NCBI RefSeq assembly: GCF_029910215.1
Contig: NZ_CP110396.1
Coordinates: 1,798,001-1,862,000, forward strand
Length of the DNA stretch: 64,000 nucleotides
Reading direction: 5' to 3'
Origin: Paraburkholderia sp. D15
GTDB lineage: Bacteria; Pseudomonadota; Gammaproteobacteria; Burkholderiales; Burkholderiaceae
Part shown: in pieces, positions 45,974 to 47,440 of the stretch
Position numbering within the stretch: position 1 is the stretch's first letter
Layout: each line of letters opens with the position of its first letter
Notes under the pieces: model-generated
What the model was told of the DNA's origin: nothing
What the model saw: the letters and a program-made list of their open reading frames with translations, nothing else
Database searches by the model: none
Program-made: the position numbers and the translations under genes

Positions 45974-46001
45974 TTGACGCATCGTGTCCCGATCGTTTAC
46001 T
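45974..46001 (+). promoter_or_regulatory. Candidate sigma-70 promoter of the thr leader
   Basis: TTGACG (45974-45979), a 16-bp spacer and TTTACT (45996-46001) resemble -35/-10 boxes. The predicted start would fall at about 46008, only a couple of bases before the leader ATG, so the leader could be translated nearly leaderless. Pattern only; not verified. Confidence 0.4.
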
Positions 46002-46009
46002 GTCGATGC

Positions 46010-46096
46010 ATGGACTTCCACTCGATTCCCTTCGCTGCCGTCACCACCACGACGACCACCTTCACAGGCGGGTCGTCTGGAGGTTGCACACGCTAG
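46010..46096 (+). CDS. Threonine-rich leader peptide (attenuator)
   Basis: A 28-codon frame, MDFHSIPFAAV-TTTTTT-FTGGSSGGCTR, stopping at TAG 46094-46096. Six Thr codons in a row (ACC ACC ACG ACG ACC ACC, 46043-46060) plus two more make 8 Thr of 28. This is the hallmark of a ribosome-mediated attenuator leader, as in E. coli thrL or pheM, and it lies directly ahead of a threonyl-tRNA synthetase gene. No Shine-Dalgarno is visible. An alternative ATG at 46006 reads His/Asp in another frame and is disfavoured because only the Thr frame stops promptly and fits the downstream gene. Confidence 0.8.
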   Translation: MDFHSIPFAAVTTTTTTFTGGSSGGCTR

Positions 46097-46134
46097 CAGC
46101 ACGGAAGCAGTGGCAAACCACCGAAGGCCCCGCC
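46051..46134 (+). promoter_or_regulatory. Pause and antiterminator segments of the thr attenuator
   Basis: Segment 1 (GACGACC, 46051-46057, inside the Thr codons) pairs exactly with segment 2 (GGTCGTC, 46071-46077). If a ribosome stalls on Thr codons and covers segment 1, segment 2 can pair with segment 3: GGCGGG (46067-46072) with CCCGCC (46129-46134), and GGAGGTTGC (46079-46087) with GCAAACCACC (46113-46122; one mismatch, one bulge). Segment 3 overlaps the left arm of the terminator, so pairing 2:3 should block it. Derived by eye; folding energies not computed. Confidence 0.6.
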
Positions 46135-46161
46135 GGAAACGGACGGGGCCTTCGGCATTTC
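46121..46161 (+). terminator. Attenuator terminator hairpin
   Basis: CCGAAGGCCCCG (46121-46132) and CGGGGCCTTCGG (46144-46155) form a perfect 12-bp stem; inside it CCG/CGG closes a GAAA tetraloop with one bulged A. The tail CATTTCT is only weakly T-rich, so termination might be Rho-assisted or partial, as in some high-GC attenuators. Located 24 bases past the leader stop and 65 before the synthetase start. Confidence 0.7.
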
Positions 46162-46225
46162 TGGACCCTCCGTTTGCGGCATCTCTCGCCGCGTCGAGCG
46201 GCAATCGACATAACGGAGCGTGACT

Positions 46226-47440
46226 GTGAACGACATCGACCATCGTGTATTGGGCAACAAGCTCGATCTTTTCCATCAGCAGGAAGAAGGCGCCGGGATG
46301 GTTTTCTGGCATCCGCGCGGCTGGACCCTGTATCGCGTGCTGGAAGACTACGTGCGGGCGCGCATGCGCCGCGCCGGCTTTCGCGAGATTCGCACGCCGC
46401 AACTGCTGGCGCGCTCGCTGTGGGAAAAGAGCGGCCATTGGGAGAAGTTCGGCGCGGCCATGTACTCGCTCGCCGACGCGGAAGAAGGGCGCGCGCTGTG
46501 CCTGAAACCGATGAGCTGTCCGTGTCACGTGCAGGTGTTCAATCAACGCGTGCGCTCGTATCGCGAGCTGCCGGTGCGGTATAGCGAGTTCGGCGCGTGT
46601 CATCGCGACGAGCCGTCGGGATCGCTGGAGGGATTGAAGCGCACGCGCGCGTTCGTGCAGGACGACGCGCACGTGTTCTGCGCGCAGTCGCATATCGAAG
46701 CGGAAGTCGGACGGTTCTGCGCGTTGTTGCGCGCGGTGTACGCGGACCTCGGCTTTCCGGATTTCAAGGTCGCGCTCGCGACGCGCCCCGCGCTGCGCTC
46801 GGGCAGCGAGGCGACGTGGGATCGCGCGGAAAGCGCGTTGGCGAATGCCGCGCGCGCCGCGGGTCTGGCGTTCGATCTGCTCGAGGGCGAAGGCGCTTTC
46901 TACGGGCCGAAACTCGAATTCCATCTGATGGACAGTCGCGGGCGAAGCTGGCAATGCGGGACGATCCAGCTCGACTTCGTGCTGCCCGACCGGCTCGATG
47001 CGGAGTTCGTCAACGAGCGCAACGAACGCGAGCGGCCGGTGATGATTCATCACGCGGTGCTCGGCAGCATGGAGCGGTTCATCGCGATGCTGCTCGAACA
47101 TCATGAGGGATGGTTGCCGGTGTGGCTCGCGCCCGACCAGGTCGTCGTCGCGACGATCAGCGACGCGAATGCGGGCTACGCGCATGAAGTCATGCAGGCG
47201 CTGGACGATGCGGATATTCGCGTGGTGCTCGACAGCCGGCCGGAACGGCTGGAGAAGAAGATCGTCGATGCGCGGGAGAAGCAGGCGCCGCTGATGGTGG
47301 TGGTCGGTTCGCGCGACGAACGCGACCGCACGGTCAGCATTCGTCAGCGTGACGGGCAGCAGATTACGTTGCCATTGGCGGAAGGCGTCGAGCATTTGAC
47401 GCTCGCCGCGCGTGCGCCGAGGTTGCCGCCAAGACCGTGA
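46226..47440 (+). CDS. Threonyl-tRNA synthetase paralog, catalytic plus anticodon domains only
   Basis: 404 residues against ~640 for full ThrRS. It begins directly with the class II core (DHRVLGNKLDLFHQQEEGAG) and lacks the N-terminal TGS and editing domains. The active site looks intact: catalytic zinc ligands Cys98 (MSCPCHVQVF), His149 (VQDDAHVF) and His275 (PVMIHHAVLGS), plus EFGACHRDEPSGSL. Residues ~300-404 form the anticodon-binding domain (WLPVWLAPDQVVVATISD). The MNCPGH motif is altered to MSCPCH. GTG 46226 follows ACGGAG by seven bases; the in-frame GTG at 46220 is too close. The Thr-rich leader upstream suggests induction when threonyl-tRNA falls. A full-length thrS must exist elsewhere. 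Confidence 0.88.
   Translation: MNDIDHRVLGNKLDLFHQQEEGAGMVFWHPRGWTLYRVLEDYVRARMRRAGFREIRTPQLLARSLWEKSGHWEKFGAAMYSLADAEEGRALCLKPMSCPCHVQVFNQRVRSYRELPVRYSEFGACHRDEPSGSLEGLKRTRAFVQDDAHVFCAQSHIEAEVGRFCALLRAVYADLGFPDFKVALATRPALRSGSEATWDRAESALANAARAAGLAFDLLEGEGAFYGPKLEFHLMDSRGRSWQCGTIQLDFVLPDRLDAEFVNERNERERPVMIHHAVLGSMERFIAMLLEHHEGWLPVWLAPDQVVVATISDANAGYAHEVMQALDDADIRVVLDSRPERLEKKIVDAREKQAPLMVVVGSRDERDRTVSIRQRDGQQITLPLAEGVEHLTLAARAPRLPPRP

Follow-up and report, generated by a model that had tools for sequence, protein, structure and literature searches.

A threonine-rich leader with the build of a transcription attenuator precedes a short threonyl-tRNA synthetase gene in Paraburkholderia and other proteobacteria

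The short ThrRS locus of Paraburkholderia sp. D15

Here we describe an element that precedes the gene for a short threonyl-tRNA synthetase (ThrRS) in Paraburkholderia sp. D15 and that we read as a transcription attenuator, probably sensing charged tRNA-Thr. The window, by which we mean the whole stretch of 64,000 nucleotides (nt) analysed (contig NZ_CP110396.1, positions 1,798,001 to 1,862,000), is part of contig 2 of the 8.3-Mb genome. The short ThrRS gene is flanked by a GNAT acetyltransferase gene and a DUF3050 gene, and since both neighbours lie on the opposite strand, the leader and the ThrRS gene make up a single-gene unit. The original prediction, drawn from the letters of the window, had placed before this gene a leader of 28 codons, six of them Thr codons in a row, a pairing of these sensor codons with the next segment, an alternative pairing of that segment with the left arm of a terminator, and a perfect 12-bp terminator hairpin. 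All of these are present, at the following positions:

45974..45979, plus strand: -35 box TTGACG; the position of TTGAC upstream of the leader ATG is conserved
45998..46003, plus strand: probable -10 box TACTGT, after an 18-nt spacer; TATTGT in some relatives; proposed from conservation
46010..46096, plus strand: leader peptide open reading frame (ORF), 28 codons, ATG 46010, TAG 46096, no Shine-Dalgarno motif, probably leaderless
46043..46060, plus strand: sensor, six consecutive Thr codons
46043..46057, plus strand: segment 1, which forms 13 pairs with 46071-46084, interrupted by a bulged C and an A-A mismatch
46067..46087, plus strand: segment 2, left arm of the antiterminator, pairing with segment 3
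46113..46134, plus strand: segment 3, right arm of the antiterminator, overlapping the left arm of the terminator
46121..46155, plus strand: terminator hairpin, segments 3:4, 12 + 3 bp (46121-46132 with 46144-46155, and 3 further pairs above a bulged A), then CATTTCT
46226..47440, plus strand: short ThrRS, 404 amino acids, catalytic and anticodon-binding domains only

The leader peptide of the window copy is MDFHSIPFAAVTTTTTTFTGGSSGGCTR. Among ATG-started ORFs of 12 to 45 codons on both strands of the window, four hold a run of at least five identical residues and the Thr leader holds the sole run of six. The ThrRS gene was found downstream as proposed, with a correction to its start: in place of 46220, GTG at 46226 is the likelier start codon, because the proteins of relatives L008 and L009 begin there, with ATGAACGAC and ATGAATGAG respectively, and it is preceded by GGAG at 46215-46218.

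Conservation and covariation of the attenuator

The comparison set comprises 28 leaders, mostly from alpha- and betaproteobacteria: nine from a first sample of the genus, 17 from a scan of one genome per species with two peptide patterns, and two from plasmid records of Caballeronia and Burkholderia arboris. L036 and L037 were omitted as repeats of L007 and L009, and start codons in this set were picked by us. In the first genus sample the short ThrRS occurs in 9/35 genomes, each time next to a normal ThrRS, and the Thr run and leader are present at 9/9 of its loci. The species-genome scan, all of whose counts are minima, yielded at least 80 loci, with at least 19 short ThrRS genes, at least 58 long ones and 3 that reach a contig end and were left unjudged. 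Among the matches listed, a Thr-rich leader and the same type of terminator stand at 19/19 short-ThrRS loci, the hosts being Paraburkholderia, Burkholderia, Acidocella, Inquilinus, Bradyrhizobium, an Azospirillaceae genome and an uncultured bacterium. Thr-richness is common to all 28 leader peptides, which hold 3 to 10 Thr residues each.

The two alternative structures are conserved and show compensatory changes. In A2, the alignment of these 28 leaders, 96% of the terminator cells are paired and 29 carry double changes; for both of these and for the covariation score, 0/500 shuffles, a count and not a probability, came as high. The antiterminator, for which the folded window copy served as template and to which one pair was added once the other sequences had been viewed, is paired in 85% of cells and has double changes in 9/18 pairs; here too 0/500 shuffles reached the paired cells, the double-change cells or the score. 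When the structures were slid by 1 to 3 columns, pairing fell to 25-60% of cells for the terminator and 32-62% for the antiterminator. One compensatory change can be followed directly in L069, where segment 2 has GGTGGG in place of GGCGGG and the terminator arm CCCACC in place of CCCGCC. Duplex energies agree: across 13 hand-picked representatives, native 2:3 partners beat swapped ones (P = 0.00035) and native 1:2 partners beat them slightly (P = 0.029). Stem 1:2 is paired in 78% of cells, and its segment 1 is additionally constrained by its Thr codons. The alignment across relatives that had been put forward as a check thus upheld the Thr run and the conservation and covariation of stems 2:3 and 3:4, and did not uphold covariation of stem 1:2.

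A probable leaderless start

Six bases separate the -10-like TACTGT from the leader ATG, which places the expected transcription start at or near A46010. In 25/28 leaders the position of TTGAC relative to the leader ATG is -35, -36 or -37, the box being absent in L040, L043 and L069, and in 63/68 leaders of a wider set it falls within -33 to -38; as the start was chosen in 26 of these 68 with a preference for a TTGAC box, the first figure is the cleaner one. The base preceding the ATG is C in 96% of the 68, and GGAG, AGGA, GAGG or AAGG at -15 to -4 was found in 0/68. Because TTGAC stands 35-37 nt before the ATG and a Shine-Dalgarno motif is missing, the simplest reading is that the leader mRNA is probably leaderless, its transcript starting at the AUG. 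A strict consensus scan found no consensus promoter at the window copy.

The short ThrRS

A domain search found the class II core and the anticodon-binding domain as the only domains of the 404-amino-acid protein, and neither the TGS nor the editing domain of housekeeping ThrRS. It passes NCBIfam TIGR00418 with 462.8 bits (cut-off 383.65), and its alignment begins at residue 243 of chain 1qf6_A, which we take to be E. coli ThrRS. That the enzyme is a paralog, as the original prediction held, is borne out by a second, full-length ThrRS in the same genome, 51% identical to it over the common part.

In a tree made by a quick method, 30 short ThrRSs lie on one side of a branch with a Shimodaira-Hasegawa-like approximate likelihood ratio test (SH-aLRT) value of 100 and 35 normal ones on the other; L167 and L187 were not included among the short enzymes, and others were omitted by choice. 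The alphaproteobacterial short ThrRS of Acidocella nests among betaproteobacterial ones, and L207 forms a long branch. These sequences suggest one origin of the short ThrRS followed by transfer. Seven positions separate the short from the normal enzymes, among them a change from N to S beside the first zinc-binding Cys and one from R to H beside the last zinc-binding His, each seen in 30/30 short and 0/35 normal ThrRSs. In 30/30 short enzymes the motif arginines checked are retained, as are the three zinc-binding positions, presumably equivalent to C334, H385 and H511 in E. coli. We infer from the sequences that the short ThrRS would charge tRNA-Thr.

Distribution of the leader and a second controlled gene

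A covariance model, R1, was built from alignment A2 and run over genomes. Within the genus it matched 123/144 genomes at E<=1e-4. The short ThrRS is encoded in 55/144 (protein search, E<=1e-145), and 55/55 of these genomes hold a strong leader match. In 53/55 the leader lies on the same strand within about 360 nt upstream of the gene, adjacency having been read by eye from the match tables; the exceptions are G071, where the gene starts at the contig end, and G152, where about 5 kb separates the gene from a leader on the opposite strand. The short ThrRS copy of G152, like that of L249, which diverges after about 15 residues, looks disturbed.

The same kind of leader precedes a second type of gene, which encodes a hydrolase of the isochorismatase family (Pfam Isochorismatase) and occurs in 17/144 genus genomes (E<=1e-40), with a Thr leader directly upstream in 17/17. 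The hydrolase leaders in the genus end in runs such as TTTTTTTASGGS*. In 22 of them native 2:3 partners beat swapped ones (P = 0.0039; P = 0.0025 for 13 hand-picked representatives), the terminator pattern having missed 3 of 25, which were left unscored. The Asp, Lys and Cys of the isochorismatase family, presumably the catalytic residues, are kept in 24/24 aligned hydrolases (L224, of the 25, was not aligned). Together with the probable leaderless start and the occurrence in alphaproteobacteria, this second controlled gene goes beyond what had been predicted.

We also considered mutual exclusion between the two genes: with 55 and 17 of 144 genomes the overlap is 0 and the expectation 6.5, a naive P of 0.00015 that clustering by clade largely explains. 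On a normal-thrS tree of 35 genomes both labels are clustered, with 4 changes each, and 2 independent pairs stand on starred branches.

At E<=0.001, R1 matched 55/398 genomes of the phylum and 21/300 of the order. The 37 loci inspected there comprise Thr-rich leaders before the short ThrRS (7), the hydrolase (8), an aspartokinase (1, L219), a gene that looks nucleotidyltransferase-like by eye (1, L221) and an unclear gene (1, L214), and 19 loci without a Thr run. The order of a Bradyrhizobium-like genome gave matches in 13/297 genomes at E<=1e-6, among them a further ThrRS (L243) and the leader of L248 described below. In another genus of the same class, perhaps Pseudomonas, 103/249 genomes matched at that threshold. 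Of 39 loci inspected there (the top 19 and 20 lower ones chosen by the analyst, with no random draw), 26 have Thr leaders before the hydrolase, recognised by its N-terminal motif, and 11 have Met-rich leaders; the other two are L249, with a Thr leader before its diverging ThrRS, and one unclear case.

Proposed mechanism and alternative explanations

We put at roughly 0.88 the probability that the element is a classical ribosome-mediated transcription attenuator whose signal is charged tRNA-Thr and whose target is the gene of an auxiliary ThrRS lacking an editing domain. From the sequences we infer the start site, the termination and the response to Thr-tRNA, which would act together as follows. 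Transcription would start on the leader AUG or no more than one or two bases away from it, and a ribosome would load onto the leaderless end. With Thr-tRNA plentiful, the ribosome would reach the stop codon and cover segment 2, so that the 3:4 hairpin would end transcription. With Thr-tRNA scarce, it would stall on the Thr run and cover segment 1, and segment 2 would then pair with segment 3, so that the terminator could not form and the ThrRS gene would be transcribed. In the absence of translation, 1:2 and 3:4 would form and transcription would end. Apart from the leaderless start, this logic had already been put forward in the original prediction; it is supported by the conservation in relatives of the terminator and the 2:3 antiterminator as well as of the leader frame and its Thr run.

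Several observations weigh against it. The terminator tail of the window copy, CATTTCTGGA, is a weak U-tract, and the hairpin is missing from the list of a consensus terminator scan. Covariation of stem 1:2 was looked for in the 28 leaders and none was seen. The shuffles ignore relatedness, so that their counts are no probabilities, and on two measures they did come up to the observed values: for the terminator 68/500 matched the double-change pair count and 154/500 the pair types, and for the antiterminator 27/500 and 38/500. The six Bradyrhizobium leaders have only 3 to 4 Thr codons, partly broken by Ala or Ser, and L221 and L214 are weak Thr-rich matches before other genes.

The alternative that survives best keeps the same attenuator and changes its natural signal: the housekeeping ThrRS would be poisoned by a natural inhibitor, for which the short ThrRS would be a resistant stand-in and which the hydrolase would destroy. 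It is attractive because of a precedent in Streptomyces, where an auxiliary, antibiotic-resistant tryptophanyl-tRNA synthetase (TrpRS) is reportedly under ribosome-mediated transcriptional attenuation (to go by the title of a 2010 paper by Vecchione and Sello), because the hydrolase could serve as an antidote, and because an obafluorin producer has a resistant ThrRS. This inhibitor-resistant copy has been described, as has hydrolysis of the beta-lactone of obafluorin (PMC10619133). The sampled short ThrRSs are, moreover, a single clade of patchy spread whose members sit beside a normal ThrRS in 9/9 genomes checked; the two changes beside zinc-binding residues in every short enzyme and the retained family residues of the hydrolase point the same way. 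Against this, the inhibitor, its producer cluster and the resistance are all hypothetical, and the mutual exclusion of ThrRS and hydrolase is largely accounted for by clustering on the tree. We therefore hold poisoning as a tentative idea, somewhat more apt to be wrong than right. A wider version, which we consider more doubtful still, is that proteobacteria possess a family of leaderless sentinel attenuators that read the poisoning of a synthetase and switch on a remedy, the Thr leader calling up a resistant ThrRS or an inhibitor-destroying hydrolase and a Met-rich leader a GNAT enzyme that would disarm a methionine analogue or an inhibitor of methionyl-tRNA synthetase.

It is unlikely that the short ThrRS instead replaces the normal enzyme under zinc lack or another stress, in the manner of the cyanobacterial ThrRS T2, with the leader just reporting the drop in Thr-tRNA. 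Anabaena T2 is an editing-impaired ThrRS (PMC4787780) and is induced at low zinc (PMC9437257). The zinc-binding positions are nonetheless kept in 30/30 short enzymes, in itself not decisive, and a hydrolase under the same kind of leader would be left unexplained.

Less likely again is that the hairpin is no terminator and that the leader acts on translation, or as a small RNA or peptide in trans. The weak U-tract of the window copy would fit this, as would a Sinorhizobium attenuator peptide whose functions in trans are known (PMC7298713), and a further structure present in part of the loci:

46168..46218, plus strand: possible hairpin CTCCGTT...AACGGAG over the Shine-Dalgarno site of the ThrRS gene, non-significant in the window copy

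In the window copy 0.113 of shuffles gave a hairpin as long, and a value of 0.05 or less was obtained in 12/41 loci, the window copy not among them; 10 loci were skipped because GGAG or the terminator pattern was missing. As an extra element such a hairpin is possible. Control of translation or action in trans is opposed by the covariation of both alternative structures and by U-tracts that are longer in several relatives than in the window copy.

Chance, with a Thr-rich ORF happening to lie over an ordinary intergenic terminator, has nothing more than the weak terminator tail in its favour and is rejected as wildly improbable, because the element is conserved in relatives, two bacterial classes keeping it with compensatory changes.

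Relation to known systems

The attenuation mechanism is already known; it is the controlled genes and the probable leaderless form that appear to set this element apart as new. In E. coli, the pheM-pheST attenuator combines alternative hairpins with a leader peptide that has cognate-codon runs, and a synthetase gene follows, as here, the difference being that pheST is a housekeeping enzyme and the short ThrRS an auxiliary one. The Thr operon leader, RF00506, is likewise rich in Thr and followed by a terminator; in gammaproteobacteria it serves the control of Thr biosynthesis. Membership of this Rfam family was rejected because the full-length match is weak, at 14.6 bits where the gathering score is 55, and at threshold Rfam gave no family on the window element and none in 13 related loci. 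Charging state or product also governs the T-box of synthetase genes in Firmicutes and the translational operator of E. coli thrS. A T-box was rejected as well: the model gave no match, and the mechanism proposed here depends on ribosome position.

Among the closest is the Streptomyces TrpRS system, which, as far as the title of the paper conveys, is likewise a leader-peptide attenuator on a second, auxiliary aminoacyl-tRNA synthetase. The present element differs from that actinobacterial Trp case in sensing Thr, in its occurrence in proteobacteria, in an enzyme without an editing domain, in being probably leaderless and in having a second type of controlled gene. For trpL of Sinorhizobium meliloti, the 5' end of the RNA is stated to begin with the ATG of the leader ORF (PMC7298713), as is probable here; what differs is that trpL concerns Trp biosynthesis and that its RNA and peptide also act in trans. 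Anabaena T2, too, is a second ThrRS with impaired editing (PMC4787780); it keeps a degenerate editing domain, and in the enzyme described here that domain is absent. Leader-peptide attenuators before pheST, and before trpS and leuS in Streptomyces, are known or predicted (PMC1262725), as are His leaders before hisS paralogs in bacilli (PMC2965389). A Thr leader before thrS in proteobacteria was not found among the listed titles and abstract starts of open-licence PubMed Central articles; Lopatovskaya 2010, which by its title deals with attenuation of aminoacyl-tRNA operons, could hold an earlier prediction.

If our reading is true, this would be a second well-conserved case of a spare synthetase controlled, through a stalling ribosome, by shortage of its own product, now in proteobacteria and for an enzyme without an editing domain. 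The same kind of Thr leader on an uncharacterised hydrolase would tie that enzyme to the charging of Thr-tRNA, its substrate perhaps being a ThrRS inhibitor. Should leader peptides indeed reveal the protected target of a detoxifying enzyme, attenuators would point the way to antibiotics not yet known and to the antidotes against them.

Related leaders before other genes

Two Thr-rich leaders precede genes of other kinds. L219 (32.2 bits) stands before an aspartokinase gene, which we take to be ThrA-like and whose frame reaches the end of the locus; this leader is much like the known thr operon leader. L248, in genome G382 (40.1 bits), has the Thr/Lys-rich leader MTISTKATTKTKAPSGGSGAVRA before a semialdehyde dehydrogenase gene, presumably for aspartate-semialdehyde dehydrogenase, the kind used in Thr synthesis. 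Both matches count in favour of the attenuator reading.

The Met-rich leaders, of the MNMMCSSMTASGGP kind and of the same build, stand before an acetyltransferase gene (GNAT by Pfam for L275, the one tested) at L269, L271, L274, L275, L277, L278, L279, L281, L283, L285 and L286. In the genus, the weaker matches (about 44-64 bits) have no Thr run in their leaders; most of those inspected precede DUF2917 genes. The D15 genome itself has a second leader with the look of an attenuator (L116, contig 2, 685376-685526): its build is the same, its sequence is MLTHILIATANKHHTRAFIGWPLGVRAR*, and a DUF2917 gene comes after it; leaders of this type have an Ile-containing core (of the FIAIAIN kind) in several relatives.

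Between tRNA-Val and the normal thrS of the D15 genome (L002) stands a short ORF that contains Thr, MTPRTLTETASERR*, together with a strong terminator. The stretch also has possible hairpins and is similar in the genus loci inspected among L017-L032. R1 gave no match in it, and at threshold Rfam gave nothing besides the tRNA on L002, L018 and L027.

L119 (D15 genome, contig 2, 130061-130226) and L189 have leaders that contain His and carry a TTGACA box ahead of the ATG; the gene following the L189 leader matches Redoxin. Leaders ending in MTRFGWAVGGVVR or similar, without an amino-acid run, stand before small proteins at L204, L205, L206, L209 and L211, all from the genus of the Bradyrhizobium-like genome.

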